The notes under the pieces were generated by a model. The model searched no databases. It was not told the origin of the DNA and saw only the letters and a list, made by a program, of their open reading frames with translations. From a virus: a stretch of 20,097 nt of DNA. Positions 1 to 20,097 of the stretch are shown here, piece by piece (within the stretch, counting starts at the first letter, position 1; the number at the start of each line of letters is the position of its first letter). Position numbers and translations under genes: made by a program. Location: IMG/VR virus record IMGVR_UViG_3300042884_000705, positions 1 to 20,097 of that record. One strand, 5' to 3'.

Positions 1-3000
1 GGCGGCAAAGTGCTTGTCGGCCACGTCTTTCTTCGCAATATCAACCTCATTGGCGTCAGCATCAAACAGCGCCGCCGTCACCTTGGCGCGGTCTCCCTTC
101 TGCTTTTCCAGGGTCCGCAAGGTCAGTTCCACCCGCTTGTCCATGCGGGTTTGCCAGTTATTCATCCGCCGCTCGGCCGCAATGCCCTGATCCACCAGGG
201 CCGCAACCGCAGGCCACTTCCGAAACATGCGGCTGGGCCTGCGCAGGACAGACAGAAACGGCGTCAGATCACGCATCTGCGCAGGATCGTCCACCACAAC
301 GCCAGGCGGCAGCCGAGTGTCGGCCCAATTCTCCTTGACCGCCGCGACGTTGCGCTCCCGCATACCCGCCGCCGCCGCGCGCACCGCCCGCCCGGCTGGG
401 CGACCAAACAGCCGCATGAACAAAGCGGGGTCGAAGGGGTTGGCGTAGAGGGAGCCGGTGCCGTCATCGGTCTCCGGGGGCGTCGCAGGCGATGGCGGCT
501 TCAGGTGCTTTTCCCGAATGAAAAACCCGCCGTCCTTGGGGAAGGTGTAGAGGTCCAGCGCGCGGGCTTGCGCGCGCGTGATGCCCTTGCGGACAATGCC
601 GCGCAGCACCTTCCCGCTCTGCGTTGTGTGTTCAATGATTGGCTCGTCGCCGCGCTCAACAGTGCCAGCGGGCTCTTGGGCCGGGGTACGCACTCCATTG
701 GCAGGCGGCGTAATCGGGGCACCATAGGCGGGGGGCGGCGGGGTGCGCGCGGCAGGGACCGCAAGCTGCCGCAGCGGCATCTCCATGTTCTCAATTCTGT
801 CGAAAAGCGCGGTGACGTTGGAGGCGTCCGAAATATCCACGGTTTGCGTGGTGCCAATCCGGCCGGCTGCCGCCTTGTCTAATTGCTTGTCAATGATGAC
901 GATGCGCGTGGCGACGTTGGTGCCGGCTCGCTCAAAGGTTGAAGTCGGAAGGCGAATGTCGGCGACGAAGTGTAGATCCGGGTTCGTGCTGCGCCCCTTA
1001 TCATCGTTGGCGTAGAGCCACTGGTCAAACCGCTTGTCTGCCGCAGGGCCGATCGGGATCAAGGCCACGATACGGCCGCCACCCCGCAGGTGATTCGCAG
1101 CCTTGGCCAGATGCTCTATGGCCATTTTACCGCCCACGCCAAAAGGTGGGTTCATCACGATCACGTCATACTTATTGACGATGTTGAGGTCTTCAAAGGT
1201 GGAGGAAAGAAGCCGGTCGCTCTCCGGGTTCATCACCATTGCCAGCCTGGCGCGCAGCGCGTTGGACGGCTCAATGGCGGTGCGGGCGAGGTTGTCACCA
1301 AACCAGCGGGCAATGGCCCCGTGGCCTGCCGAGGGCTCCAGAACCGCATTGCCGCCGCGAGCGTCAGCCCAGGCCACCATGCGCTGCCCCAGGGGCTCAG
1401 GGGTGGCAAAGTAGTCATTGCCCTCCTGCGATTTGGTGCGGGGGTTTTTTTTCTGCTGCCCGAAGTAGTAGGCTTTGGCCCGGCCGAACGGCGTGGGGGA
1501 CGCATTGCTAAGGCGGTCGGCTTCCTTGCCGCCAATGCCCTCGCCTTCGTGCCCTGGCTCAAAATTGTCGCCGGCCTCAAACGCCCCGATAAAGGCGTCC
1601 TTCAGCGCCCGCGCATCCTCGCCCATGCCCAGGTTTTCGGCGGTGGATGCCCGCGCGGAAATCTTGCTGGCAAAAGCAAACCGCTCCCAATTCGTGCCGG
1701 TGTTCATGTAGCGCAGGATTGCGTTGGATGCCTGGCCCGTGCGGTAGGCGCGGCCTTCCTGCTGGATTGCGGTCGTGGGCGCGACCGGCAACCCGAGGTT
1801 CAGGATGACGCGCTGATACTTTCCCGTCGTGTCGTGGCCGCTCCAGCCGGCGTTCTTGGCTGACTGCACCAGCAAGACAACCGACCCGGATGCGTCGTCT
1901 TGGAACTTGGCATAGCGCGCCAAGTTGTCCCGCTGCTTTTCGTCGCCGTTGACGATAAGCGCCTTGCCTCCAAAAGCTTTCCGATACGCCCGCACCGGGG
2001 CTTCCATGTTGCTGAAGGCAGCCCCGATAAGATCGGCAAATTCCGTGCGAAACTTGCCGAGAACCAAACGAGCCTTGGCCGCGTCGTCGCCCACCCTCGA
2101 ACCAACAAACCGCTTTTCGTCAACATCAAAAGGATTGAAGCCGCCGCCGCCCTTGAAATCGTGAAACACGATCACCTTGCGGCCCAGGTCCAAATGCTTC
2201 TGGACAATTGGGATGGACGCCTCGGTCTTGATTGCCTCTAGGAAATACATGCGGGCGAGGTAGTCAAATTGCTCGTCAATCGTGGCTTCCAGCGTACCCC
2301 AGTGCATGTTTTTACTGTCGGCGCGTCGGCTTTCACTGATCCACGAAAGCGCCTCATCCACCCGGTTGCCGATACGCGAGTCAATGAGAACAAACCGCCT
2401 GTCGTAGTCAGCGTCCACGTCTAGCTTGCGCGCGGACAGTGAACCCTCGCGGCGCAGCCATGTGTTGAACTCCCGCTGCATCAGGCCGCGGTCCACAAGC
2501 GGCCCGGGCTCGTTCAGCTTGCCCGTCTTCATGCTATAGCCGAAATGCTCAATCATGAACCGCTGCTGCGCGGACGGCGTGTTGTAGCCGCTGCTTTCAG
2601 GCTCGGCGCCATACTCAAAGAGATAGCCCTGCGCCCATTCAATGTTCTTCTCGTAGGCAAAGGGCGTGGCGCTCAGGAACATAGCGCGGGGGCGCGCGGC
2701 CCCTTGCGATTCCATCACGCGCCGTTTTACCGCAGCCCGGCTTTCAGCCAGGCGGCTTGTGAGCGGGTCCAGCTTTGCCTCAACCCGCCCAATCTGTGCT
2801 GCCAGTTGGCCAGTCCGGTCTCCAGCCACGCTCACTTGCCTACGAAGCACTCTCAATTCTTCAGCAAGCGCAAAGACTTCACCAACCGCCTCTTGGTTTT
2901 CCATGTCATGCAGGGCCAAGGCGCCGTCTGGATGGAGCGTCAGCGCCCGAAGCGCGGAAAGCGCATTGGTCACAGACGCATCACCGCTTTTCATCAGGTT

Positions 3001-6000
3001 GTGCGCTTCATCCGCGACAACGAGATCCCAAGAGCGCGAGGCCAGCGCGGCGTTCTGGCCGAAATTGGCGTAAGTGGTGACAACAATGCCCTTGCCGGCA
3101 TCTTTGGTGTCAGCAAGGCGCGTAATCTTCAGGCCAAGATCGCCGCCCGAGTTTGCCCAATCGCTGCCTACTTTTTCGTCGGGCACGACGATCAGGATGT
3201 TGGTCTTTCCCTGGCGCTGGAACCGCTTAATGACGCCCAAGCCGGTGTAGGTTTTACCAGTGCCGGTGCCGTTGGTGAACAGCATCCCGTACCCGTCCGG
3301 CTTTGCAAACCGATCCTCGGTTTTGGCTACATCCTCCTGCTGGCCGGGCAAAAGCACCGGCAGCGTGGCGCGGATGTTGGTGATGCCAGGCTGTAGCGCG
3401 AGGCTTTCAGCCGCGCGCTGCGCGGCTAAGGCTTGGTCGCGGCTAAGGTTCCCCGAAGGGCTCGGCGCAACTGCACCGCCTGCCGCCGATCCAGACGATA
3501 CTCCATCGAGGCCAAGGAGATCGCCTCGGCCATCGAAATCACCTCCGGCAGCGATGCCCTCAAGGCTCCCTGCTGGGTTTCCAGCAGAAAACCCGAAATC
3601 GCCTCGTTCTCCACCAGCAGGGGGGCTACCAACCGATGAGCCAGAATCACCCGGTTGTCCTGCGTCGAGCGTTCCGCCAGCGCGTCCACCCGCGCCACTG
3701 CCGCTTCCATTTCCTCCGGTGGGGTTGCCATCACTTCCCGCCAGAACGGATTGAGCGGCTGGCTGGCCGCCACCTGATTCCAGATTTCCCAGGGTGCTTG
3801 CTGCATTGCTGCCTCCTACTTCGTTGCTTTGGGCGCCCGCCCCGTCGCTAGATCCTGCGCCCGCTGGACCAGAAGGGGGTCGTCCTCCGCTCGGGCCTGG
3901 CGGAGCATTGCCGTCGCCAGCATCCGTTCCGCCACCAAAGAGGTCGGGGCCGCCGCCTTTTCGGCTGCGGGCTTCTTCGTCGCGTCGCTTGATCCGCTCA
4001 TTGATGATCCTCAGAATTTGGGCGCCGCCGATCTCTGGATCGCCCAGAAGATTTACGCCCGGCTGACTTTTGCGCGCCTGCTCGGCATAATCCAAGAGAA
4101 TTGTTGCTACGGCATCGCGGCCACGGGGCTTCGTGTATTCCGTGTCGCGGAACATCGTGGCCAGAAAGCCAAGCGTAAGCGGCGAGGCTTGATCCTCGAA
4201 AATGCTGGCTTGCCCAATTAGGGAAGCGATGCGCGTGTTGCTGTCGCGAGCCCGGCGCACGATGCTGACTGCGGCCAGCAGGTCCGGCGTGATGTCCACA
4301 CCCGGCGCGATCAAGCCTGCGTCGGCCTCCCGGCGCATGAGCGCCCAGGTCCCCGCCACGTCCAGCAGCGCGCCACCGATGGCTTTGATGTCGCTGTCGC
4401 CGGCCTCAAACACCTCGGCAACAAGCGTGCCGTCGCGATAGGCCGCCTGGAGCAATGCGGCTTCAATGCGGCGCCGGCCGTCCTGCGTGATGGCGCCGTC
4501 GCCGTCCATCATTGCGGCGCGGTCTGCCTTGGCCACGGCTTCATTCATGAAGGCCACAACAAAGGGCCGGTTTTCGGCGGAAGTGACGCTTCCGCCCCGG
4601 AATTTCTCAATGGCCGAGCCCAGCGCCTGGGCATCGGCAGCGGCGCGCTCAACGGGCGACATAGCGAGTGTGGTGCGCTCGTTGCTGGCCCTGGTGTATT
4701 CGGCCCGAGCCGCGTCATCCATCTTGGTCTGCCGCACACGCACCAGAACGGGGGCCTGCATGTCGGCCGTGTCGTAGCCCTGGCCTTCCAGCCATTCGCG
4801 GTACGCCTGGGCCGATGGCATGTCTTCTTCGTAGGCGCGGCGCAGCGCCATGGTGCGCCCGTTGCCGCTTTCCACCACACCTTCCGGCGAGACAACAGGG
4901 GCGCCGTCTGCCGTTGAGGGGTTTTCGCCCAACAGCGCCGGGTTTAGTCCCTGCGCCATGCTGGCAACCTGCGCCATTGACGCGGCCCGTGTGCGGTCGC
5001 GCGGCTGCAATTCCTGGGGATAGTCGGGATTGGGCCGCCCGTTGTCGTCGTTTGACACGACCAGCGCGGACACGTCGTGCACCTCATAGGTGACTTGAAT
5101 GGGTATGCCGGATGGCGTGAAAATTGTCGCGCGGCGGTCGCTGCCTGCGGTCTCGGGATCACGTTCCGCCACAATGCGCGTCGGCGCGGCATTCGGTACG
5201 GCGGTCGGCGCTTCCGGCTGGTCGAGGGTGGAAAAGTCAAAGGCGCGAACAGCCGCCCGATCATCCATCAGGTCGGCCACATCATCCGCAACCTCGGCAC
5301 TCGTGGCAAGGTAAATCGGTTTCAGGGTGGGCTTCACCGCCTCGGGGTCAAGGCCCATCTCAACCGCATCGGCCAGCACCGCCCGCGCCCAGGCGCGAAA
5401 CTTCACCACGCCTTCCTCAATATAAATCAGGCCGAGTTCAATGCCAGCAGCCAGCACCGAGGGATCAATCCCCGCGTTGACGCGCTGGCCGGACGCCTTG
5501 ATGGCCGCGGCAAACTTGGCTTTGGCCGCTGCCTTGCGGGCCTCAAGGTCGGAGGCCGGGGCAGTTGGCGCCGCTGGCTGCGCCGGAGTTGTGACATCGG
5601 GCGCCGGACTTGTGACATTCTCCCCATCGGAACCCGTTGGATTGCCTGGGGTCGGCGCAGGAGTTGTGACATTTGGGGCAGGGGGCTGTGACGTAGAGGG
5701 CCGATCCTGGGGCGCCTCGGGCTCCGGCTGGGGCGCTGGCGCTTGGGGTTGGCTGGTTTGCCCCAAAGAATGCCGCACCGCCGCAGCGATGGCCTGCTCT
5801 CTTGTCCAAGACTCAAGCCTGCTCTGCACCGCAATGGCGCCCGATCCGCCTGATCCGGCGTAATTAACATACCAATTCTCGGGAAATGACTTGAACGGCG
5901 GATCGCTGGCGAGTTCGTAGGTTGTTCCTGATGGTGTCGCCGCAACGGCGCCAGCCTCAAGGGCTGCGGCAAGTTCTTCGCTGCTGCGCACCTGGCGCGG

Positions 6001-8286
6001 GGGCTGGCTGGGTTCTTCTCCTGCGTCTTGCTCAGGCGCCGAAGGTGCCTCGGCTTCCTGGGCAACGCGCCGCAGGGCCGCGTCAACCGACAAGCCTTCT
6101 TCCGCCATGTAGCCCTGCACCGCAGCAACATCGCCTGGCGCCAAGGTGATGTTCAGGCGCCGTGCCGCAGTTTCAATGCGGCGCGTGATGGCGTCGGGCG
6201 CGGGCGCGGGCGTGGCGGGTGGCTGGGGCGGTTCTGGCGCAGGCTGTGAGGGCGCCTCACTCTGCGGCGGCGTGGGTGCTGCCTCTGGCGCAGCCGGGGC
6301 GCTTGGCGGCGTTTCGGGCGCGGGCGGCGCCTGGTTGGGCTGCGGATAGATGCCGCCAACCACGCCTTCCTGATTCTGCGCCGCGAGCCCGGTCATAAGC
6401 GCCGCGAAATCCTGCTCGGTCGCCGGCGGGCGCATGAGCTGCGTGACCGGCATACCATTCGGGTCATAGACCTGAATGATCTGGTCCTCGTCGTCCACGG
6501 TCCAGCCTGGCGGCAGGCTGCCCGCAATGCGCTGAACCCCGGCCGCGCGATCGGCCTCTGACTGCGCTTCTTCCTGCGCCGCCTGCTGCTCCTGCAGCTC
6601 GGGCGTAGGCGTCGGGGTGTTCAGCGCTTCCTCAAGCGAAGGCCGGGTGTTATTCGGCAGAACCGTGGGGACCGCCGCCCCGCCTGGGGGAGACGCCAAG
6701 GGAAGTGTTGCCCCAGGCGGCGGCGGCGGCTCGCCCGATGGGGGCGCCGCGGGCGGAACCGCAGCCGCGCCGGTCCCACCAGCCGAACCGGGAACAGGCT
6801 GTGCAAGGCCAGTGAAATCAGCCTCGCCCAAAAACCGATCAATGCCGCGCTCGGGCTGCGCGCCTAGCTGCGCTTCTACCGCCGGCGGCAGGCTTGGCGC
6901 TCCGGCTGTGGTCATGTTCGGCACCGGCTCAATGGCCTGGGCGCCGGTTCTGCCCATGTTGCGCGCTTCTTGCAGCGTGGCGATTGCCGTGGTGCCAACC
7001 GCTTGCGGCCCGGCACCGAGCATTTCCATCAAGACCTCGGAAGGCGTCACCTTGCCCTCGGCGAAGATGCCCGCAGCCGCCTCGCCCGCGCCCTCAAAGC
7101 CGATTTCAATACCCATGTTCCGCAGGCCGGTCATGGTATTGCGGAACACCCCAGCGCCAGGCCGCAGCCCCCGCGCTAGGCCAAGGCTTGCCGTGTCGGC
7201 CAGAGCAGGCCCAAACCCGCCCCGCTGTGCCGCCTGAAATTCCTTGCGCATGGCGCCCATGTTGCCACGCAGCCAAGCCTCAACGGCCGCGCCATCTTCG
7301 CCATCCACGCCTTCAGACGCCATCCGCTTTGAAAGCGCCTCAACAAAGCGCGGCCCCACATCGGCCGCATAGCCACCCAGGAATTGACCAGTGAGCATCC
7401 CAGGGGCGCGCGCCACCACACCGCCCGCCAGCGCGCCAACAAGCCCCGGGATCTGCGACGGCAGGCTTTCCACGGATGCTTGCTGCACAATACCGCCGAA
7501 ATCGCTGCTCAGAATGCGCCAGGCGTCCCTGTACCGCCCGCTGTCCACCGCCTCCGCAAGAGCCTGAACATTGGGGTTCCGCAAAAACTCCTGCTGGTCG
7601 GCGCGCGACTTGATGAACGATTGGATGGCGCCGCCCAAAGCGCGCTCAGTACGATCGCGCAAACCCTGCCGCTGATCCGGCGACAATTCGGCCCAAAGCG
7701 GCGCTTCCGCAGGGGTCGCCCCGCCATCGGCTCTATCGGCCAAGGCGAGGGCTTCCATCATGCTTTTGGCGCCGGTTAGGGATAGGCCCTGCTTGAATGT
7801 CTCCCAGCCCGAACGAAGCTGATCCCCCGCCCGCTCAAGCCCGGTCGCCTCGCCATAGGTGATGCGCTGCCCGCCAAAGGATTCGGGGCTATCCATTTGA
7901 AGCGGGCGCGCGGTTTCTGCCAGCAATTCATGGCCGCGATCAGGGACAAAGCCCAGGCGAGCAATGCCCTCATTGATTCGCGTCCCGCGCAATGAAAGCG
8001 GGGTTTGCTCCACCTGCGGGCCTGGGTATTCCTCAATCTGCCGCTGCGCTGGTTCGGCCTGCGGCGGCAAGGGGAGATCCGGCGCCGGGCGTTGCGGCGG
8101 CGGTTCAGCCTCGGGCAATGACATGAAGCTGGATGGCGTGAAGCCAATCAGTCCCGCGCCGCTCGCGCGTGGCGTGGCTATGCCTCGCTCTTTGTCAAGA
8201 AACGCTTTGGCCGCACGGGCAGCCGCGCGCTCGTCGCCAGCCTCAATCTCAAGGATGCGCCCGTCAGGGAGTTCTACTTCAATCAA
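1..8286 (-). CDS. Giant polyvalent phage protein (ParB-like, SF2 helicase and adenine methyltransferase), C-terminus outside window
   Basis: I checked every in-phase triplet from 8286 to 1 and found no stop: 2,762 codons, still open at the edge. The start is TTG at 8286; an in-frame TGA lies at 8307-8305, GGGGAG sits upstream, and the codon overlaps the previous gene's stop by 4 bases. Layout by residue: 1-35 short domain (IEVELPDGRILEIE); about 270-410 Gly/Ala-rich hydrophobic stretch like internal virion proteins; 430-1000 mostly Pro/Ala/Gln linkers; about 1050-1260 ddrB-like ParB domain (RDR 1096, ESGNGR near 1140); helical region to about 1425; Gly/Ser linker 1430-1620; SF2/SNF2-like helicase with GTGTGKT 1673-1679, DEAH 1759-1762, SATP 1872-1875 and QEGRAYRTGQ 2176-2185; class I N6-adenine methyltransferase with EPSAGHG 2317-2323 and NPPF 2379-2382; then GGFFIREKHL near 2590 and an SLYANPFDP-type polyvalent region. 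Known relatives: P1 DarB and Bcep22-type giant virion proteins. I infer an injected anti-restriction/DNA-processing protein. Confidence 0.93.
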   Translation of the reverse strand, partial: MIEVELPDGRILEIEAGDERAAARAAKAFLDKERGIATPRASGAGLIGFTPSSFMSLPEAEPPPQRPAPDLPLPPQAEPAQRQIEEYPGPQVEQTPLSLRGTRINEGIARLGFVPDRGHELLAETARPLQMDSPESFGGQRITYGEATGLERAGDQLRSGWETFKQGLSLTGAKSMMEALALADRADGGATPAEAPLWAELSPDQRQGLRDRTERALGGAIQSFIKSRADQQEFLRNPNVQALAEAVDSGRYRDAWRILSSDFGGIVQQASVESLPSQIPGLVGALAGGVVARAPGMLTGQFLGGYAADVGPRFVEALSKRMASEGVDGEDGAAVEAWLRGNMGAMRKEFQAAQRGGFGPALADTASLGLARGLRPGAGVFRNTMTGLRNMGIEIGFEGAGEAAAGIFAEGKVTPSEVLMEMLGAGPQAVGTTAIATLQEARNMGRTGAQAIEPVPNMTTAGAPSLPPAVEAQLGAQPERGIDRFLGEADFTGLAQPVPGSAGGTGAAAVPPAAPPSGEPPPPPGATLPLASPPGGAAVPTVLPNNTRPSLEEALNTPTPTPELQEQQAAQEEAQSEADRAAGVQRIAGSLPPGWTVDDEDQIIQVYDPNGMPVTQLMRPPATEQDFAALMTGLAAQNQEGVVGGIYPQPNQAPPAPETPPSAPAAPEAAPTPPQSEAPSQPAPEPPQPPATPAPAPDAITRRIETAARRLNITLAPGDVAAVQGYMAEEGLSVDAALRRVAQEAEAPSAPEQDAGEEPSQPPRQVRSSEELAAALEAGAVAATPSGTTYELASDPPFKSFPENWYVNYAGSGGSGAIAVQSRLESWTREQAIAAAVRHSLGQTSQPQAPAPQPEPEAPQDRPSTSQPPAPNVTTPAPTPGNPTGSDGENVTSPAPDVTTPAQPAAPTAPASDLEARKAAAKAKFAAAIKASGQRVNAGIDPSVLAAGIELGLIYIEEGVVKFRAWARAVLADAVEMGLDPEAVKPTLKPIYLATSAEVADDVADLMDDRAAVRAFDFSTLDQPEAPTAVPNAAPTRIVAERDPETAGSDRRATIFTPSGIPIQVTYEVHDVSALVVSNDDNGRPNPDYPQELQPRDRTRAASMAQVASMAQGLNPALLGENPSTADGAPVVSPEGVVESGNGRTMALRRAYEEDMPSAQAYREWLEGQGYDTADMQAPVLVRVRQTKMDDAARAEYTRASNERTTLAMSPVERAAADAQALGSAIEKFRGGSVTSAENRPFVVAFMNEAVAKADRAAMMDGDGAITQDGRRRIEAALLQAAYRDGTLVAEVFEAGDSDIKAIGGALLDVAGTWALMRREADAGLIAPGVDITPDLLAAVSIVRRARDSNTRIASLIGQASIFEDQASPLTLGFLATMFRDTEYTKPRGRDAVATILLDYAEQARKSQPGVNLLGDPEIGGAQILRIINERIKRRDEEARSRKGGGPDLFGGGTDAGDGNAPPGPSGGRPPSGPAGAGSSDGAGAQSNEVGGSNAASTLGNLESGGGQPAAQSVLAGSDGNPTGGNGSGSGAGGRAGGTLDAGQPGDSGSSVGSPPAGGERGDFGFSAGNPAGSLEGIAAGGDFDGRGDLLGLDGVSSGSAAGGAVAPSPSGNLSRDQALAAQRAAESLALQPGITNIRATLPVLLPGQQEDVAKTEDRFAKPDGYGMLFTNGTGTGKTYTGLGVIKRFQRQGKTNILIVVPDEKVGSDWANSGGDLGLKITRLADTKDAGKGIVVTTYANFGQNAALASRSWDLVVADEAHNLMKSGDASVTNALSALRALTLHPDGALALHDMENQEAVGEVFALAEELRVLRRQVSVAGDRTGQLAAQIGRVEAKLDPLTSRLAESRAAVKRRVMESQGAARPRAMFLSATPFAYEKNIEWAQGYLFEYGAEPESSGYNTPSAQQRFMIEHFGYSMKTGKLNEPGPLVDRGLMQREFNTWLRREGSLSARKLDVDADYDRRFVLIDSRIGNRVDEALSWISESRRADSKNMHWGTLEATIDEQFDYLARMYFLEAIKTEASIPIVQKHLDLGRKVIVFHDFKGGGGFNPFDVDEKRFVGSRVGDDAAKARLVLGKFRTEFADLIGAAFSNMEAPVRAYRKAFGGKALIVNGDEKQRDNLARYAKFQDDASGSVVLLVQSAKNAGWSGHDTTGKYQRVILNLGLPVAPTTAIQQEGRAYRTGQASNAILRYMNTGTNWERFAFASKISARASTAENLGMGEDARALKDAFIGAFEAGDNFEPGHEGEGIGGKEADRLSNASPTPFGRAKAYYFGQQKKNPRTKSQEGNDYFATPEPLGQRMVAWADARGGNAVLEPSAGHGAIARWFGDNLARTAIEPSNALRARLAMVMNPESDRLLSSTFEDLNIVNKYDVIVMNPPFGVGGKMAIEHLAKAANHLRGGGRIVALIPIGPAADKRFDQWLYANDDKGRSTNPDLHFVADIRLPTSTFERAGTNVATRIVIIDKQLDKAAAGRIGTTQTVDISDASNVTALFDRIENMEMPLRQLAVPAARTPPPPAYGAPITPPANGVRTPAQEPAGTVERGDEPIIEHTTQSGKVLRGIVRKGITRAQARALDLYTFPKDGGFFIREKHLKPPSPATPPETDDGTGSLYANPFDPALFMRLFGRPAGRAVRAAAAGMRERNVAAVKENWADTRLPPGVVVDDPAQMRDLTPFLSVLRRPSRMFRKWPAVAALVDQGIAAERRMNNWQTRMDKRVELTLRTLEKQKGDRAKVTAALFDADANEVDIAKKDVADKHFAA
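3426..3806 (-). CDS. Nested small gene 2 (126 aa), +1 frame inside the giant gene, unknown function
   Basis: ATG at 3806 is preceded by TAGGAGG with a five-base spacer, about as good a ribosome site as any in the window. The 126-residue product has balanced, protein-like composition: MQQAPWEIWNQVAASQPLNP at the N-terminus, then Glu/Ala/Leu-rich helices (VAPLLVENEAISGFLLETQ; LPEVISMAEAISLASMEY; LDRRQAVQLRRALRG). This differs from ordinary shadow frames in this window, which are Arg/Pro/Trp-rich. Codon third positions are dominated by G/C (gtg, gcg, ctg, gag, cag). The overlapping giant frame is low-complexity Gly/Ser here, which is what a shadow of this gene would look like. I see no signal peptide or transmembrane helix. 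It may act with nested gene 1. I do not recognise the family; a structural or chaperone role is only a guess from context. Confidence 0.65.
   Translation of the reverse strand: MQQAPWEIWNQVAASQPLNPFWREVMATPPEEMEAAVARVDALAERSTQDNRVILAHRLVAPLLVENEAISGFLLETQQGALRASLPEVISMAEAISLASMEYRLDRRQAVQLRRALRGTLAATKP
3812..3818 (-). promoter_or_regulatory. Ribosome binding site of nested gene 2, overlapping the stop of nested gene 1
   Basis: The minus strand reads TAGGAGG followed by CAGCA and ATG. The TAG at the start is the stop codon of nested gene 1, so a terminating ribosome lies directly on the Shine-Dalgarno of the next gene, an arrangement typical of translational coupling. Confidence 0.7.
3816..4001 (-). 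CDS. Nested small gene 1 (61 aa), +1 frame inside the giant gene, unknown function
   Basis: This 61-codon frame starts at ATG 4001, with AGGA six bases upstream (inside TGAGGAT), and ends at TAG 3818-3816. It lies wholly within the Gly/Ser linker region of the giant gene, in the +1 frame. The product begins MSGSSDATKKPAAEK and continues as a basic/acidic, probably helical peptide (MLATAMLRQARAEDDPLLVQ), with no membrane segment or domain I recognise. Codons end mostly in G or C, as expected for a used frame here. Its stop codon forms part of the Shine-Dalgarno of the following nested gene, suggesting translational coupling. It could still be a chance frame: it is short, and no homologue was tested. 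Confidence 0.5.
   Translation of the reverse strand: MSGSSDATKKPAAEKAAAPTSLVAERMLATAMLRQARAEDDPLLVQRAQDLATGRAPKATK
4007..4012 (-). promoter_or_regulatory. Ribosome binding site of nested gene 1
   Basis: The minus strand reads GAGGAT, then CATCA and ATG at 4001; the AGGA core is six bases from the start. In the giant frame this stretch encodes part of an Arg/Ile/Glu helix, so the match is not forced by a Gly-Gly codon pair. Confidence 0.5.
5589..5672 (-). repeat. Three-copy V-T-[TS]-P-A repeat in a linker of the giant protein
   Basis: The plus-strand nonamer TTGTGACAT occurs at 5589, 5610 and 5664. The spacings are multiples of three, so the giant protein carries VTTPA, VTSPA and VTTPA within a Pro/Ala/Thr-rich stretch. 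It is best read as an expanded disordered linker; the in-frame spacing argues against an operator. Confidence 0.55.
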
Positions 8287-9572
8287 AAGACGATCTCCCC
8301 ATTCTCATTGACGCGAATGCGCGACCGCCCCGCTGCTGGCGGCGGCTCTGCCTGCATCCCGCTCTGGCCAATCGGCGCTGCCGGCGCGGGCGCTTCCTGG
8401 GGCGCCACGCGCGGCGCGCTGCTGCGAAAAGGGTTGTTGCGCTCAAAAAAGCCCGGTCGCGGCGGTGCTGGTGCGGCGGCTGGCGGCGCTACTGATGCCA
8501 CTCCGCCAAGAGTGCGGCGCCAATCGCCAAAGGGTTCCATGGCAATGGCAATGTCTGCCTGGGTGGCGCCCGATGCGCGCAATGCTTCATAAATACGGGC
8601 AACGGCATTGGGTGACGCTTGCGCCCCGCCGGCAATGGCGGCGGCCTCCTGTGGGCTCATGCCCGCGCGAAGCAGTATTTGCTCCTGCTGCTGACGGGCG
8701 CCCTGCCTTGGCTCTGCCGCAGGGCGAGACCCGCCCCCTCGCTCTGTCGGCGGCGTCTGAGCAATAACTTCACCAGTTTGGGGATTAACAAGCACACGAC
8801 CCGGCCCCAACACAACCGGGCGCGGCGGCGCTGCCTCGCGCGGCGCGCGACCCTGCCCACCGCCACCGCCACCACCAGAGCCAGCCGCATTGCGCGCCGC
8901 TGCTAGGTCGCCGTTGCTGTTCAGGTACGTGTCAATGAAACTCCGCTGCCGCGCCGCATCGCGCGGATACATGCGGGTTGCCATCAGCCCAGCCTCGCCA
9001 ATAAGCCGCCGCTGATCCGCATTATTCAGAACCTCGTCCGGCAGATTGATCCCGGCGCGGCTGCCGTAAAAGCGGAACGTACTAAGGTCGCCGCGCTGTA
9101 GCGCCAGCATCGCCAGGCGCTCGTCGCGCTCAAGCTGCCGGTTCTCAGTCTGCGATACCTGCTGCGCCACACCCAGGGCCGCCCGGCCGCCGCCACGCAC
9201 CTGCGCCAATTCCTGCATGACCGGCTCAAGCAGCCCGGCCCCGCCACGCGCCCGAGGCGCTTGCGCCATACCCCCGCCGCCCGGCTGGGGCGCGGCGCCA
9301 CCCTGCGCCGGCACCGGGGGCGGCAAGGAGCCCGGCGCGGCCTCATTCGTGACGCTGGATTGAGTGACCGGAACGCCCGCCGTGGGGTCAGCCGGGGCTT
9401 GCCCTGGCTCGGCTGCGGGCGCACCACCAAGAGACCGCTGCAAGCCTCGCCGGATTGCCTCGTCAATGGCACCGTCGGTGAGATCGCGCTCAAGTCTTTC
9501 CATCCGACGAACACCGCGGTCAAAGCCGCCGTCGGCTTCGTTCTTGCCGATGAAATCTAATGGCCGATACAT
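8283..9572 (-). CDS. Probable DNA-ejection (internal virion) protein, 429 aa
   Basis: ATG at 9572 follows GAGGGGGTG. The product begins MYRPLDFIGKNEADGG and ends IRVNENGEIVF. It alternates disordered Pro/Ala/Gly/Gln-rich segments (about 50-115, 235-300, 365-410, including a run of seven Gly near 240) with helical segments rich in Arg/Gln/Glu (about 120-230 and 300-350, for example SPQEAAAIAGGAQASPNAV). I recognise no enzyme motif. It lies between the 286-residue protein and the giant protein, which it overlaps by four bases; in P22 the matching positions are gp7, gp20 and gp16, the proteins ejected ahead of the DNA. The Gln/Ala-rich make-up resembles gp20-type ejection proteins. The role is inferred from position and composition only. 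Confidence 0.85.
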   Translation of the reverse strand: MYRPLDFIGKNEADGGFDRGVRRMERLERDLTDGAIDEAIRRGLQRSLGGAPAAEPGQAPADPTAGVPVTQSSVTNEAAPGSLPPPVPAQGGAAPQPGGGGMAQAPRARGGAGLLEPVMQELAQVRGGGRAALGVAQQVSQTENRQLERDERLAMLALQRGDLSTFRFYGSRAGINLPDEVLNNADQRRLIGEAGLMATRMYPRDAARQRSFIDTYLNSNGDLAAARNAAGSGGGGGGGQGRAPREAAPPRPVVLGPGRVLVNPQTGEVIAQTPPTERGGGSRPAAEPRQGARQQQEQILLRAGMSPQEAAAIAGGAQASPNAVARIYEALRASGATQADIAIAMEPFGDWRRTLGGVASVAPPAAAPAPPRPGFFERNNPFRSSAPRVAPQEAPAPAAPIGQSGMQAEPPPAAGRSRIRVNENGEIVF

Positions 9573-9602: not shown

Positions 9603-10463
9603 CTAATAGATCACAGCGCGCGGCTGCTGACCCCTGCGCCCTGGCGTACCCGACCCTCCCGCGAACGGGCCTATAGGCACCCCCATCGCTCCCAGCGCCG
9701 CCGATCCCACAAACCCATCAACCTCGCCAGCCAGGTCAGACCACAGCCTTGCGTTATCCAGGGTGGCGCGCGACCGCGCATCCGCCTGATTGGTGATTGA
9801 GTTTCCCTGCACCTGCCCGATGGACCGCGTGTCGCTGGCCGTGGCGCTGCCCACATTTGAAATGCTGTTGGCAATGTTATTGCCTTGCCCGATTTCAATG
9901 TTGGCAATGCTGCCACCCTCCTGGGCAAACATGCGCGCAATATCGGAGGTGGCGGCGCTGCGTTTGTCTCGCGCGCTTTCTCGAAGATTGATATTGGTCA
10001 ATTCGGCGGTGCGGTTCAGTTGGTCGTTGTCCTCCGCCGCCTTGGCCATGAACCGCTGATCTGCGTTCAGGATTGCCGCAGCGCCCGCCCGACCAGCGCC
10101 GCGCAAACCAGACTTGGCAATGAATGCGCGGCCCGTGCGCTGCAAATCCTCACGCGCGAGGGTTTGGTTTGGCGTCAGCCCGAGGCGGTAGTTGGGAGTG
10201 TAAAATTCGGCCTCGCGCTCGGTAAGCGGCTGCATCGTGCTTGCGAAGCGCATTGTGCCGGCCCGGATTGCATCAATCCCGCGATTTGCTGCGCCGCGCG
10301 CTTCGGCTTGCGCGCGATCGCTCGCCTCAATTTGAAGCCGCGTGGATTCACGCAGCGCATCGGCCTGTATCTGTGCCGACCGATCGGAGGCTTCAGCCTG
10401 CGCTGATGCGGCCTTCTTGTTGGCTTTGCTGCCAAGGACGGCGCCAAAAATTTTTCCAAGCAT
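9603..10463 (-). CDS. Probable DNA-ejection (internal virion) protein, P22 gp7-like position, 286 aa
   Basis: ATG at 10463; the upstream GGGAGGG overlaps the TAA of the preceding gene, suggesting coupled translation. The product starts MLGKIFGAVLGSKANKKAAS, a short hydrophobic/Gly start followed by an alanine-rich amphipathic helix (about 15-75, with AQAEASDRSAQIQADAL) likely to form a coiled coil. A middle part (about 85-150) has NYRLGLTPNQTLAREDLQRT, then Asn/Ser/Gly-rich sequence (about 175-230) and a Gly-rich C-terminus. Small internal virion proteins of podophages often have this mix of helix and Gly/Ala segments, sometimes with N-terminal processing. Placement next to the 429-residue and giant proteins supports an ejection complex. 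No catalytic motif is visible. Confidence 0.87.
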   Translation of the reverse strand: MLGKIFGAVLGSKANKKAASAQAEASDRSAQIQADALRESTRLQIEASDRAQAEARGAANRGIDAIRAGTMRFASTMQPLTEREAEFYTPNYRLGLTPNQTLAREDLQRTGRAFIAKSGLRGAGRAGAAAILNADQRFMAKAAEDNDQLNRTAELTNINLRESARDKRSAATSDIARMFAQEGGSIANIEIGQGNNIANSISNVGSATASDTRSIGQVQGNSITNQADARSRATLDNARLWSDLAGEVDGFVGSAALGAMGVPIGPFAGGSGTPGRRGQQPRAVIY

Positions 10464-10880: not shown

Positions 10881-10923
10881 AGTTTGGTTGCTCCGTGGTG
10901 AACGCGGGGAGAAACGAAAAGCG

Positions 10924-11358
10924 TCATAGAGATGCCGCCTCCATCCAAGCGTCGGTAATCTGCTGTTCGGTCAGATTGAGCGCAGCGCCAAGCATTACGA
11001 CAAGCTGATGGTCGCGCTGGTAGCTGGTCGCGTATTCCCACTCAATCCGCGCTGCCTCACGCGCTGTCTCGGTGCCGGGCATGGCCGCAATCTGCGCCTC
11101 CACCATTGCGCCTGTCAGGCCAAGGCCGAGCAGCGCAAGGCGAAGCTGGCGCGCGGTAATGGTGGGTATAGGAGGTGGCGGGGGCGCCGGTGCATCTTGG
11201 ATGGTCATCTGCCCCGCAGCAACCAGTGCCATGATCGCTTCGTAGTCGGCGTTGCTTAGGGCGAGCGGGACAAAAGACACCACGCCGTTGACCTCGACAC
11301 GGATACCTGATGGGTTACCGGATTGATCGTTGTGATATTGTGCGTTTGTATAGGTCAT
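10924..11358 (-). CDS. Tail-fibre-associated small protein, 144 aa
   Basis: ATG at 11358 begins three bases after the tail-fibre stop, so the two genes are probably translated together. Residues 1-60 (MTYTNAQYHNDQSGNPSGIR, then a short beta-type stretch) are followed by a Pro run (APPPPPIP, about 58-65) and a helical C-terminal domain starting ITARQLRLALLGLG, with a WEYATSYQRDH segment and an ending of QQITDAWMEAASL. From memory, C-terminal domains of this type (RQLRL, then WEYA, then a helix with D before the end) are common in small proteins next to tail-fibre genes; I cannot name a Pfam entry. A fibre chaperone or attachment role is inferred from position. Confidence 0.85.
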   Translation of the reverse strand: MTYTNAQYHNDQSGNPSGIRVEVNGVVSFVPLALSNADYEAIMALVAAGQMTIQDAPAPPPPPIPTITARQLRLALLGLGLTGAMVEAQIAAMPGTETAREAARIEWEYATSYQRDHQLVVMLGAALNLTEQQITDAWMEAASL

Positions 11359-11361
11359 AAC

Positions 11362-13059
11362 TCAAAACTCCGCTGAGGCGGCAGACCCATCGACCCATAA
11401 GGCGCTGGCGCTTGTATTCGATGTTGAAGCTCCGTCAATCCCAACGGTAGGGACAGTTCCACTGTACCCTGTAACAGTCGGAGTAGCTCGCTTTGAAACC
11501 TTGAATAGCCAATTTGCTGTAACAGTAGCGCCGCCAATTCCTGCGGCTTGTAAGAAACCACCGCTCAACCTCTCATAATACCGCTGACACAGCGCCAATT
11601 CCGCGCCGTATTGCCGCCGCTCAAAGGGCGTAGCAACCGTGCCTTGTTCCATCTGGACGCCTGTGATGTAGAAGGTAGCGCCATTGGTGCCGACGACCGA
11701 AACCGCACCCGGTACGCTAAGGAGGTTTCCTGCTGCCCACGCGCCTGCTGTGCCGCTAAATGTGCTGCCTACTCCAAGACTGAATTCTAAGTTAATACCT
11801 ATGCCATTGGTGGTATTCCAAGTGCCAGTCGTATCACCGGCTATAGAAACGGTTTTGCGTTCCCAGGTGTTTGCGGCACTAACGGCGTAGGTGAATCGGT
11901 ATGATCTATTACCAAGACCATTTCGCAGCGATGCGCCAAAGGTGCCGGTCAGACTGCTACGCACCCAGAACGAAATTACTATTGGTTGCGCGGCGGCGGT
12001 CCCCCAACCAAGGTCGGAAACATTGAAGCCTTCAATGATTTGACCGATAGTATAGAAATCAGAAGCCAGCACGGCGTATGCCGACTGCGATGTGATCCCG
12101 AGGTAGTTTGTAAAGCCGGGTGGGGGCGCCACGGCACCAGCGTTCTGTTGAGCAATTACTTTACCCGTCACTGATTGTTGGACATACCAACGATCTACTA
12201 CATACCCGTTAATGGTATTCGGAGTGGCGGTACCCGCATAGCGTTGGTCTATCCGCATGTCGCCATTGATGATGCGATTGCGCGCCCCCGATAGTGCGCC
12301 GCCGTCAAAGGCAAGCTTGCCCGTGGTGACGCTGGTATCTGCGAGCTTCGCCGTGGTGACGGCGTTATCTGGTATGGCAATTGAATCAACAGGATCAAGC
12401 AGCCGGAACCGCGTTCCGTCGTGCCTCACCGTAACCATGGAAAGCGCCGGCAGATTGCCCGCGGTAAGCGCCACAGCGCCATTTCCTTTATTTATGGGCA
12501 CCGCGCCAAGGCTGTTGATGTTTAGCGTAACCGCGCCAGTATTCGCCGCCGCGCCGGAAATAAACCGAAACTCTTGCCCCGCCGCGTATGCCGCAATCGG
12601 CGGGTTCAGGCTGATAGTCAGCGCATTGGCTGTGCCTGTGGCCGTGCCACCCCACAGAGCGGCGCCGTCTTGCGCTTGGCCCAGCGCCGCGTAATCCGTC
12701 CGCGCCACGCCATTGGCCGCGCCAGTATGCCGAAAACCGCCCATGGGTAGGTTTTTTGTTGGCACTGGAGATTCAAATGTATTGTTTATGCTGTCCACAA
12801 ACCCAAGAGCGACCCAATCCGATCCATCATATAGTGAAAGCTGCCATACGGATGCGCTTGGGAAGCTGGTGTTCAACCAAAGCTGGCCGCGCCCTGGGCT
12901 GGCTGGAGGATTGGGGCTTTCCGTTACCCGGCCGCTCACCCCCGCGACAATCTGCGCAACTGATATTTTGCGAGATACAAAGCCTTGGTTGATTTCCAAT
13001 TCATCGGTTGGCTGCGCGCTTGCGGCAGACAATAATTGAGAAATCCGAACACCACTCAT
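11362..13059 (-). CDS. Tail fibre / receptor-binding protein, 565 aa
   Basis: ATG at 13059 follows GGAG at eight bases. The N-terminus (VRISQLLSAASAQPTDELEI, then QGFVSRKISVAQI) is the kind used by many phage fibres for virion attachment. Residues about 50-90 form a LWLNTS...WQLSLYDGSDW segment; 105-222 a fibre-shaft pattern ending in HDGTRFRLLD; 228-250 the near-repeat NAVTTAKLADTSVTTGKLA. From about 260 the NRIINGDMRIDQR...DRW module starts, a common C-terminal carbohydrate-binding-like jelly-roll of tail fibres, with FYITGVQMEQGTVATPFERR near 468-487 and QRYYE after it. G+C drops in this C-terminal half compared with neighbours, suggesting module exchange. It should form trimers and contact the host surface. 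Confidence 0.92.
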   Translation of the reverse strand: MSGVRISQLLSAASAQPTDELEINQGFVSRKISVAQIVAGVSGRVTESPNPPASPGRGQLWLNTSFPSASVWQLSLYDGSDWVALGFVDSINNTFESPVPTKNLPMGGFRHTGAANGVARTDYAALGQAQDGAALWGGTATGTANALTISLNPPIAAYAAGQEFRFISGAAANTGAVTLNINSLGAVPINKGNGAVALTAGNLPALSMVTVRHDGTRFRLLDPVDSIAIPDNAVTTAKLADTSVTTGKLAFDGGALSGARNRIINGDMRIDQRYAGTATPNTINGYVVDRWYVQQSVTGKVIAQQNAGAVAPPPGFTNYLGITSQSAYAVLASDFYTIGQIIEGFNVSDLGWGTAAAQPIVISFWVRSSLTGTFGASLRNGLGNRSYRFTYAVSAANTWERKTVSIAGDTTGTWNTTNGIGINLEFSLGVGSTFSGTAGAWAAGNLLSVPGAVSVVGTNGATFYITGVQMEQGTVATPFERRQYGAELALCQRYYERLSGGFLQAAGIGGATVTANWLFKVSKRATPTVTGYSGTVPTVGIDGASTSNTSASALWVDGSAASAEF

Positions 13060-13108
13060 GGCGCGCTCTCCATCAAAAAGACTGTTTCAGAAAAAGAGTC
13101 GAGCCGCG

Positions 13109-13550: not shown

Positions 13551-15059
13551 TCAATGCCCCAGCCGCTCGACCAATATCTGTGCCGTCACAAACTCAAACG
13601 GCACCGGATCACTGCATGAGATCTCCATTTGCCAAGTCTGCGCGCAACCCATACCGCCAAAACTCTCGACCATCCGCTCGGTTGCCGGCCGGCCCATGGT
13701 TTTCCAGACCCATCGGGTCCAGATGTCATTGTCACGGCGCATCCGAACGCCAAATCGAGCGGTCGGCCCCACCTGCAATTGATCGCCGACGACGCGCGGC
13801 CGGCCGTCCTCGGTCACGCGCACAAATCCATATTCGGAAATGCGGCGCACTCCACCCTCGGACAGAGTAAATGCAAAATCATTGCCGGCCATGCGAAGCC
13901 GCACCCGCACATCATCAAGCCGGGATGAGCCAAATTCATCCACATGGGCGCTGCGGATCAGGCACCGCATGGGGTTGGCAAGGTTCTCGTAATAGGTGGG
14001 GTCCAATTCCGCGATACCGTCCTGCACCCCTACAAACACCCGCCCCCAGGCTTCTTCCAGGGACCAGCCAGGCCAGCGCGCATAGCCGCCAGTTGTGCGG
14101 TCATAGCCCCACAGGAACGACCAGCGCCCGCGGTTCATATCCAGCAGAAACGTGACGCCGCGAGTATCATAGCCCGGCGCGCTGGCATTCGGCGCCTGAA
14201 GAATAATGAACCGCTGCCCCTTGATGGACACGCTATCGGCCCATGCGTCCGTCCAATCGTCTATGCTCTGCAAGGTCAGTGCAATGTCGTCGCCTTGAGT
14301 GCGCGTCACCTGCGCCTGGAAGCGCACAAACTCAGCAGACTGATTGACCCCGAAGGTGCCCATCTTGTCCGTGACCAGCGTGTAGGGGTGGGCCAAGCCG
14401 TCGCCAGTCATCCACCGCCGAAAGAAAGGGCGATCGCCAGAAGCAAGCGTTTCAAACTGCTCAATGCTCTCCGGCCCGGCAAGCAGCAGTTCATTGAAGG
14501 GCGTGACGGCCGCCGCGACCAAATCATCAGGCTTGCCCTCGGCGGTAAACACCGAAAGGTCGTCCCACACGTCATAGCCGCCCGGCTCGCTGTAGCGAAA
14601 GCGCCCGCTATAGGGCTCAATTGCCACCAGATAGCCATCAATCCAAGCCACATGCGTTGAGGTTGGTGCCTGGGCAGAAAGCAGCCGCGTGGCGCCAGAA
14701 TCAAGGGCCACGATCGGCCCGCCGGCGGCAATGATTAGGCTTTCTTCCGTGGCGGCAAAGGTTGGCCTACCACCTCCGGAAATTGGGGTCGCGGTTACGT
14801 TCTGGAACTGCGCATTGCTCCCAATGCGCCAAACTTGCCCGCCTTGCCCAACAGCCACCAAGTCCCCGCGCCACGATTTTAGGGTAATGCGCCCCTGTCC
14901 TGGCAGGGACAACCACGGCCGCAGGCCAGGAAAGCGGGACCAGCCCCCTGATCTATTGCTGTATAGGTTTTCCGCCACGGCCACGCGGCGGCGCAAGATC
15001 GCCTCATCCGCGTTGGTAAACATGGCTTCCTCCCAGGGGAAGTTGGCCCATTGCGCCAT
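13551..15059 (-). CDS. P22 gp10-like packaged-DNA stabilisation / tail hub protein, 502 aa
   Basis: ATG at 15059 overlaps the tailspike stop by one base (TAATG). Near the N-terminus, AVAENLYSNRSGGWSRFPGL fits the start of P22 gp10-type hub proteins, in which early lines read as N-[LM]-Y followed by a short loop and PGL. The rest is repeated beta-strand sequence with many W/Y/G turns (YLVAIEPYSGRFRYSEPGGY, FNELLLAGPESIEQFETLA, RWMTGDGLAHPYTLV), consistent with a beta-propeller-like hub. At 502 residues it is close to P22 gp10 (472). In P22 this protein forms the tail hub beneath gp4 and closes the channel after packaging. The gp4-like gene nearby supports the call. The nearest family should be Phage_stabilise (PF11134), not checked here. 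Confidence 0.88.
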   Translation of the reverse strand: MAQWANFPWEEAMFTNADEAILRRRVAVAENLYSNRSGGWSRFPGLRPWLSLPGQGRITLKSWRGDLVAVGQGGQVWRIGSNAQFQNVTATPISGGGRPTFAATEESLIIAAGGPIVALDSGATRLLSAQAPTSTHVAWIDGYLVAIEPYSGRFRYSEPGGYDVWDDLSVFTAEGKPDDLVAAAVTPFNELLLAGPESIEQFETLASGDRPFFRRWMTGDGLAHPYTLVTDKMGTFGVNQSAEFVRFQAQVTRTQGDDIALTLQSIDDWTDAWADSVSIKGQRFIILQAPNASAPGYDTRGVTFLLDMNRGRWSFLWGYDRTTGGYARWPGWSLEEAWGRVFVGVQDGIAELDPTYYENLANPMRCLIRSAHVDEFGSSRLDDVRVRLRMAGNDFAFTLSEGGVRRISEYGFVRVTEDGRPRVVGDQLQVGPTARFGVRMRRDNDIWTRWVWKTMGRPATERMVESFGGMGCAQTWQMEISCSDPVPFEFVTAQILVERLGH

Positions 15060-17217: not shown

Positions 17218-17925
17218 TCAGAACTCGTTGTAGGCAATCTGGCGCGGTTGCCCGGCCTGCTCTTGCCCATCGTAATCTTCCAGATCGCGCAGCAATTCCG
17301 CTGCCCGCAGCTTGTGTTCCGCCACCTCATCCGCAGGCAGCTTGCGCACCGGCCCGTTGCCAATCTCGTAGGCCAGGGCGGTAATGAGGTAGAGATTCCA
17401 TGTCTGCCGCAGGTCCGGCATTTCTGTGGAAAGCTGCCCCTGCTGCACGTCTGTGGAAAACCGCTGGAACGTCACGGCCAGGGTAAAGCGCGGATTGTCG
17501 GGCGGCGTCGGCCACACATGCAGTACCGGATCATCCGTCCGATCCACATAGACCATAGCCGGCACATCGCCCTCGCTGGGCTGGCGCGCATCCCATTCGT
17601 CGCGCCGGCCAATCGTCACCGGGCTTTTCTGGCCCGATTGCGTGTCAGTCGCCCACACATCAACCACATGCTGAACGCCTTGGGTGGCGCCCAGGCCAGC
17701 CGTCAGAGGGTAAGAGGATTGGCCCGCAAGGAGGGTCAGTGTGGCCGTCTGAGGAATAAGCCACCAAGTCCGGCGCCGCGCTGCCACATGCCCCACAATC
17801 AAGTCTAGCCAATAGCGCGCCTCTTCGGTTTCCACCTGGCGCGCGCCATCATCATTGATCGCATAGGCGCCAATCCTGCGAAGCGCCCGTTCGCAAATCT
17901 GGCCAATGGTCAGCGCGCCGGCCAT
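17218..17925 (-). CDS. P22 gp4-like head-to-tail adaptor protein, 235 aa
   Basis: ATG at 17925 starts six bases after the previous stop. The N-terminus (LTIGQICERALRRIGAYAIN, then ARQVETEEARYWLDLIVGHV) is the helical pattern of the gp4/tail-accessory family: an early RALRRIG followed by helices. A beta section follows (LTLLAGQSSYPL, GRRDEWDARQ, PVLHVWPTPPDNPRFTLAVT). The C-terminus has a helical stretch with LYLITALAYEIGNGPVRKLP and LRAAELLRDLEDYDGQEQAG. It is longer than P22 gp4 (166 residues) but the order of elements agrees. In P22 this protein binds under the portal and carries the hub and spikes. The gp10-like gene two genes on fits that role. Confidence 0.9.
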   Translation of the reverse strand: MAGALTIGQICERALRRIGAYAINDDGARQVETEEARYWLDLIVGHVAARRRTWWLIPQTATLTLLAGQSSYPLTAGLGATQGVQHVVDVWATDTQSGQKSPVTIGRRDEWDARQPSEGDVPAMVYVDRTDDPVLHVWPTPPDNPRFTLAVTFQRFSTDVQQGQLSTEMPDLRQTWNLYLITALAYEIGNGPVRKLPADEVAEHKLRAAELLRDLEDYDGQEQAGQPRQIAYNEF

Positions 17926-19416: not shown

Positions 19417-20097
19417 TTAGGCGGCGGCCGCCGTGTACCAAGAGATGATGCCGAAATCCTGTTTGGACCGGGCATCAAACACCGATTGGAATTGCGGCTT
19501 GAGCAAACCGACCACGCGCCCGACAGACATACCAGGGCGATTGCCATAGTCGGTATTGTCGGATTCGTTGTATTCGGTTTCGCCAATGGTGGCGAAGCCC
19601 AATGCCTGCGCCCCCATCAGGATCGCCTGGGCGCCGTCAACCGTGCCGCCCGAGCCCCACTTGGAACCGCCGGCCAAGCCAAAGGTGGTCGGCACCTTCT
19701 GGTGGTCGTAGATCACCAAGCCTTCAACCACGGCCGTCGCGCCCTTGAACAGCGGGTTTGCATCACCCCTGACGCCGGCGCGGCTGACGATGGTTTGATA
19801 ATTCGGGTCACGGCGAAGATCGCGGCATTGCTCGGTAGAGAGCAGCACCGCGTAATAATCCCTGCCGCCAGAACGGATCGGCTTGATGCGCTTGCGCTTG
19901 GCGGTCGTCAAAAGCCCGACAAGCCCGTTCCAAGTCACCGTGTCAGACGAGGTGAGCGTACCCACGCTGGATGCCGCGCCCGCAAAAACGCGACGGCCAG
20001 ATGAAGGCGCGGTCACGTCAGCAGCGAAGTTCAACGAAGGAAGCTGGCTGGTGCCGACGCGGCTGGAACCATCCAAATTGAGGCTATAGGCAATGCC
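19417..20097 (-). CDS. Major capsid protein, N4-gp56 family, C-terminal 226 residues
   Basis: The frame is open to the right edge (first visible residues GIAYSLNLDGSSRVG), so the true start is outside; the TTG at 20076 is internal. The visible part has the family's pattern: DYYAVLLSTEQCRDLRRDPN, then a NPLFKGATAVVEGLVIYDHQ segment, AQAILMGAQALGFATIG, a DYGNRPGMSVG motif, and the terminal QDFGIISWYTAAAA. These correspond to the conserved C-terminal half of the N4 gp56/P22-coat-like HK97-fold capsid family. It is followed by a strong terminator, as expected for the most abundant virion protein. Portal, terminase and scaffold genes probably lie to the right, outside the window. Confidence 0.92.
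   Translation of the reverse strand, partial: GIAYSLNLDGSSRVGTSQLPSLNFAADVTAPSSGRRVFAGAASSVGTLTSSDTVTWNGLVGLLTTAKRKRIKPIRSGGRDYYAVLLSTEQCRDLRRDPNYQTIVSRAGVRGDANPLFKGATAVVEGLVIYDHQKVPTTFGLAGGSKWGSGGTVDGAQAILMGAQALGFATIGETEYNESDNTDYGNRPGMSVGRVVGLLKPQFQSVFDARSKQDFGIISWYTAAAA

Follow-up and report, generated by a model that had tools for sequence, protein, structure and literature searches.

What does the giant open frame at the left end of this viral record encode, and is its product comparable to DarB of phage P1 and to the giant proteins of Bcep22-type phages? The original prediction was a giant polyvalent protein that enters the cell with the DNA. The window (the whole stretch of DNA analysed) is the entire 20,097-base virus record, so the C-terminus of the giant protein is cut and leftward extension is impossible; viral-contig scans with the whole protein and with its C-terminal piece found no contig overlapping the missing end. 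The predicted class is right: a DdrB-like ParB domain, a SWI2/SNF2-type ATPase and an N6-adenine methyltransferase are encoded within a block of structural genes (Table 1). The chain has what characterises polyvalent proteins, i.e., several effector-type domains in one giant protein, here including DdrB-ParB and the ATPase plus methyltransferase (together, the dyad). This class was already described by Iyer in 2017 and the window protein is one more member, which places an uncultured phage in the class with giant antirestriction-type proteins.

One frame at the end of a structural cassette

The frame behaves as predicted: 2,762 codons run from 8286 to 1 on the minus strand with 0 stops, where base composition leads one to expect approximately 74. 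A chance open frame is ruled out (probability of no stop = 1.7e-33), and the remaining five frames contain 29 to 110 stops each. The TTG start codon occupies 8286-8284, from which the frame is open down to base 1. This start is plausible, judging from the sequence, because it overlaps the upstream stop (TTGA) and because the same TTG and overlap occur in the sister contig, L160. The motifs said to share its frame do so by position: GTGTGKT (3250-3270), DEAH (3001-3012), SATP (2662-2673), GRAYRTGQ (1732-1755), EPSAGHG (1318-1338) and NPPF (1141-1152).

A sequencing error across the domains is unlikely, as relatives and the sister contig align in one frame. The hidden frameshift that could have overturned the prediction is thus improbable at residues 1-527 (from the sister) and at residues 932-1432 and 1633-2601 (from other relatives); for residues 560-930, none of the 872 ORFs in the loci collected up to that point is a detectable homologue. 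Between the window and L160, residues 1-272 differ by 3 nonsynonymous and 16 synonymous changes (dN/dS 0.06), and residues 273-560 have a dN/dS of 0.29, with differences mostly at the fast-diverging residues 281-400 (67-78% DNA identity). Judged by these two stretches, purifying selection acts on the giant frame as a single protein. Protein identity to the sister dips to 63-65% at residues 281-360, flanked by blocks of 90-100%, and this dip may reflect local fast change or recombination.

All recognisable genes of the record are on the minus strand, and the giant frame is the last of a capsid-to-tail cassette, preceded by several genes for small proteins. Most of this cassette is collinear with the sister record, at 72-90% DNA identity, so the late structural-gene location typical of polyvalent proteins is seen in both the window and the sister contig. 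By position, the 286-aa gene product is a possible internal virion protein. Adjoining the head closure gene is a 623-aa protein (15059-16930) with weak pectate-lyase/beta-helix matches, likely a tail spike or depolymerase. The tail-fibre region (10881-13104) is the longest cassette stretch without a DNA match in the sister (G001), its neighbours being 74-90% identical, and a tail-fibre swap between the two contigs is likely on this pattern.

Table 1. Features of the giant protein and of the genes upstream of it
Feature	Residues	Position	Strand	Basis or remark
Giant polyvalent protein gene		1..8286	minus	2,762 codons, TTG start, C-terminus cut at contig end
N-terminal block	1-272	7471..8286	minus	~98% DNA identity to sister contig L160
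Gly/Ala-rich part	273-480	6847..7470	minus	comparison with sister contig
Pro/Ala-rich linker	481-930	5497..6846	minus	composition
Small helical domain "L"	932-1025	5212..5493	minus	adjoins dyad in relatives
DdrB-like ParB domain and helical continuation	1050-1432	3991..5139	minus	Pfam
Gly/Ser-rich linker	1440-1630	3397..3969	minus	composition
SWI2/SNF2-type ATPase	1635-2226	1609..3384	minus	Walker A, DEAH, SATP, QQEGRAYRTG
LPD36-like helical segment	2227-2290	1417..1608	minus	GIGG at 2250-2253
N6-adenine methyltransferase	2291-2505	772..1416	minus	ATPE, EPSAGHG, NPPF
Small C-terminal polyvalent-type domain	2550-2605	472..639	minus	in 45 fetched loci
429-aa gene		8283..9572	minus	directly upstream, overlaps TTG start; no family match
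286-aa gene		9603..10463	minus	weak phrog_6529
Tail fibre protein		11362..13059	minus	phrog_4492
Head closure Hc3		13551..15059	minus	phrog_578
SU10-type adaptor		17218..17925	minus	PF24175
Major capsid protein		19417..20097	minus	PF13252, phrog_334; cut by contig end

Domains, ends and relatives

Profile searches with Pfam and PHROGs, the check suggested for the domain reading, found the ParB domain, the motor and the N6-methyltransferase. Pfam PF18763 (DdrB-like ParB) matches residues 1061-1185 above cut-off (E 2.5e-33). The active-site arginine of the ParB superfamily is present (GNGR, residue 1144), and N1142 and R1144 of this motif are invariant in 16/16 alignment rows. A Foldseek search with a model of the small helical domain plus ParB returned nothing significant, its ParB match being weak (5k5d, E 0.35), and a solved-structure search with the alignment returned one chance-level match. 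PADLOC has no match for the ParB part.

For the dyad, Pfam scores a ResIII-type motor above cut-off, with the helicase C-terminal part and the methyltransferase falling short, and PHROGs gives matches to phrog_10691 (E 0, residues 1617-2511) and phrog_5143. In PADLOC, the dyad weakly matches defence-system methyltransferases and helicases. A dyad model built from a 51-row alignment has a pLDDT of 90.6 and a pTM of 0.83. Its ATPase part (the first two thirds) resembles ZorD (Z 19.8, 409 aligned, rmsd 4.1 A) and Snf2h (Z 19.6, 388 aligned, 4.6 A), and its methyltransferase part (the last third) resembles the Type I HsdM 2okc (Z 18.7, 218 aligned, 3.0 A).

The 51 curated rows are the window and 50 others: 88 of the 149 ORFs with both dyad parts were full-length, filtering at 85% identity left 66, and from these five of annotated records and eleven more were dropped. 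SATP, GTGTGK and NPPF/Y are each present in 51/51 rows, as is GxGG before the methyltransferase; TP is found at the aligned place in 48/51, the others having TA. The window thus has the LPD36 signature (GXG plus G/A/S, N-terminal to a methyltransferase with TP and NPP(Y/F)), an assignment made by motif alone. Loose regular expressions over all 149 ORFs found Walker A in 121, DExH/Q in 114 and NPP in 146, which is below the curated 51-row counts.

Beyond the methyltransferase, a Pro/Ala-rich linker (residues 2508-2550) leads to the small C-terminal domain, which also occurs in the methylase proteins of Bordetella PHB04 and Vibrio VvAW1, and the chain is cut at residue 2762. Stops close 120 of the 149 dyad ORFs at both ends; these have a median of 3,767.5 residues, of which a median of 1,406.5 lie beyond the methyltransferase, where the window has approximately 250. 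The window protein is therefore probably missing approximately 1,150 residues at its C-terminus, and comparison with intact relatives suggests a full length near 3,900 residues. One 4,822-aa relative (L073, 4094-18559) has an N-terminal SLT, with a PBECR5 nuclease, ART-PolyVal and LPD38 after the dyad. By analogy, the part of the window protein that is cut off could hold effector domains like these.

The N-terminus is less readily connected to other phages. Residues 1-480 match no phage record, and the sister contig is their sole established relative, so the part that would serve packaging and ejection has no established homology to a proven one. In alignment, the gene directly upstream is visibly more diverged from L160 than the first 272 codons, which makes the N-terminal block look recently exchanged or strongly conserved. 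Its first 30 residues show no meaningful similarity to P1 DarB, for whose packaging signal no consensus is described (PMC9024508). Two candidates were rejected: a PDG-type N-terminal motif as a universal packaging signal (the loose pattern occurs in 5/145 ORFs), and an N-terminal domain common with Parlo/BcepIL02 (the match of a 41-ORF profile to the window is not significant).

By tblastn, the giant protein matches 225 phage records, and among the matches listed, the whole dyad is covered by eight records of six phages (Parlo, 45A6, ZX1, Skulduggery, Vibrio 1.232.O and D274). Parlo (Serratia), ZX1 (Klebsiella), 45A6 (Ruegeria) and Skulduggery (Pseudomonas) are helicase-first like the window, with 43-45% identity over residues 1637-2508, but the N-terminal parts of the phage relatives differ from the window's, that of Parlo being an SLT transglycosylase. 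The closest long match is a protein of Comamonas NZ_CP083940 (47% identity over 1,160 residues, reaching into the C-terminal domain) which, unlike the window, has FtsK-gamma. Its record, NZ_CP083940.1 (L007), is a 57.7-kb Comamonas plasmid with a 3,832-aa giant protein, an N4-gp56-type capsid protein, tail genes, a replication initiator and an AAA ATPase, and looks like a phage-plasmid.

A viral-contig collection yielded 272 dyad relatives, of which 80 were kept as loci, and a species-genome collection gave 69 loci. Helicase matches occur in 157 ORFs and methyltransferase matches in 150, with 149 having both; this set includes duplicate records, e.g., L011 and L091. All 149 are helicase-first, but the query used to collect the loci was itself helicase-first, which biases this count. 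Domain order around the dyad varies: the window's order (small helical, ParB, motor, methyltransferase, C-terminal domain) occurs in 6/149, and the ParB region in 27/149. Among 20 records, the head closure protein is found in one (the sister) and capsid family PF13252 in 11; it is therefore probable that the dyad moves between phages with different kinds of virion. Two loci (L102 and L103, 233-21109) hold 6,959-residue frames with identical coordinates and match positions in bins assigned to Acidobacteria and Patescibacteria, so at least one bin is probably wrong.

Dyad order and exchange in Lastavirus

According to Iyer, the methyltransferase nearly always precedes the helicase, with DarB as the archetype (PMC5512222). 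This is the order in DarB itself (methyltransferase 91-275, helicase 833-1517) and in BcepIL02 gp70 (methyltransferase 1850-1924, helicase 2454-2996), but the window has its helicase at residues 1645-2213 and its methyltransferase after it. The predicted likeness to DarB and Bcep22-type proteins therefore stands insofar as helicase and methyltransferase are combined in one chain, and needs correction insofar as it implied the same arrangement. Between the window and DarB, the methyltransferase alone is detectably related by sequence (pairwise E 6e-6; profile E = 1.3e-9, probability 96). At E up to 1, BcepIL02 matches the window in 63 residues of the small helical domain and has no methyltransferase match.

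Both orders occur in Lastavirus. The giant proteins of LASTA (L168, 2132-15433) and ZX1 (L004, 8814-20417) are 98% shared over residues 1-258 and 70% over the last 1,140. The LASTA dyad is methyltransferase-first, matching DarB at 41-275, 784-1184 and 1439-1564, in that order, whereas ZX1 has a helicase-first dyad in the same slot. With two kinds of dyad in one slot between homologous ends, the dyad is an exchangeable cassette. Such replacement is expected if both kinds do the same job, and from these sequences we take the difference to be a natural exchange of equivalent cassettes. The ZX1 paper notes strong differences between the PLxRFG protein of ZX1 and those of its three relatives (PMC9505181), and we noticed no description of the dyad exchange in the titles and abstract openings returned by literature searches.

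These comparisons correct the "DarB-like" label: two permuted dyads exist, and the helicase-first kind is widespread (272 viral-contig matches). LASTA and ZX1 also form a natural experiment, in which the dyads differ while the ends are shared, and this could tell what each dyad defeats.

Function and comparison with known systems

By analogy, the giant frame probably encodes a late, polyvalent protein that a short-tailed-type phage packages and ejects with its DNA, and whose SNF2 and methyltransferase parts act in cis against restriction. Synthesised alongside the structural proteins, the giant protein would be loaded into the head and leave it with the DNA. In the cell, the SWI2/SNF2 ATPase would move along the double-stranded DNA as it enters and offer adenines to the N6-methyltransferase joined to it. 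Type I/III-like restriction enzymes would then act poorly on phage DNA, or would be displaced, and the protection would act in cis, like that of P1 DarB. The ParB domain might add NTP-regulated DNA binding or nicking. The methylase-helicase dyad and its antirestriction mechanism were proposed by Iyer in 2017 (PMC5512222). For the window protein we infer packaging, ejection, phage DNA methylation and antirestriction, and the proposal of packaging and ejection draws on two analogues: P1 DarB, reported to reside in the phage head, to be packaged through its first 30 residues (PMC9024508) and to protect DNA in cis (PMC5512222, PMC9024508), and JC1 gp69, a 4,515-aa DarB-like protein reported in virions with 51 unique peptides (PMC9144972).

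Points against this reading are the dyad order, reversed relative to DarB, the N-terminal part with no significant match to that of Parlo/BcepIL02, and the lack of an identified target-recognition domain after the methyltransferase. Three other roles can be weighed against this one. The protein might be a late intracellular enzyme that is not packaged, acting on progeny DNA, which it would methylate or remodel while that DNA is replicated or packaged. A late-operon location alone is no proof of packaging, and the Lastavirus literature checked, in which the term "mass spectrometry" is absent, showed us no virion proteomics of a helicase-first member and no other virion data for the clade. However, virions of JC1 and P1 do contain their related giant proteins (PMC9144972, PMC9024508), and we regard this role as unlikely. 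We give a similarly low standing to an injected restriction-like weapon with a Type ISP layout, which would put a mark on phage DNA and nick any host or rival DNA that lacks it. Foldseek ranks the Type ISP enzyme LlaBIII first for the dyad (E 8e-12), the order of motor then N6-methyltransferase in one chain is the Type ISP order (PMC4666363), and DdrB-ParB lies N-terminal of the motor, in the position of the Type ISP nuclease, with DNase activity reported for ParB-like domains (PMC5512222). However, superposition on LlaBIII is poor (TM-score 0.17-0.29, rmsd approximately 24 A), so a like arrangement is unsupported, and the ParB region is present in just 27 of the dyad ORFs. Type ISP enzymes also have an Mrr nuclease and a target-recognition domain, neither found in the window chain: the six Pfam families matched across the whole frame do not include Mrr, and no target-recognition domain was identified after the methyltransferase up to residue 2762. 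A bolder version, in which a virion-delivered ParB nuclease-SNF2-methyltransferase chain would mark the phage genome and attack unmarked DNA, its cassette being swapped wholesale between the permuted kinds, seems to us very improbable.

Short-tailed phages are known to need entry helpers, and the modelled SNF2-type motor fold belongs to a protein probably ejected by such a phage, so the ATPase might instead be anchored by the N-terminal part at the entry site and pull the genome in, with methylation secondary. Against this, dyads of reversed order are exchanged, which is unexpected for a geometrically fixed motor, and no transmembrane stretch is evident (top 19-residue hydropathy 1.62); we rate this role the least probable of all.

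Several known systems resemble the window protein in part. P1 DdrB has a homologous ParB region (33% identity over window residues 1051-1367, E 4e-33), but it is a separate protein, whereas in the window ParB is fused to the dyad. Like the window protein, P1 DarB combines a SNF2-type ATPase and an N6-methyltransferase in one large phage protein and has GxGG ahead of the methyltransferase, as read from its sequence; unlike it, DarB has the methyltransferase motif NVPF rather than NPPF, is 2,255 aa long and has no ParB match in its chain. BcepIL02 gp70 differs in its N-terminal SLT and methyltransferase-first dyad, but, like the window protein, the Bcep22-type giant proteins (BcepIL02 gp70 and JC1 gp69) have genes that close the structural module of a short-tailed phage.
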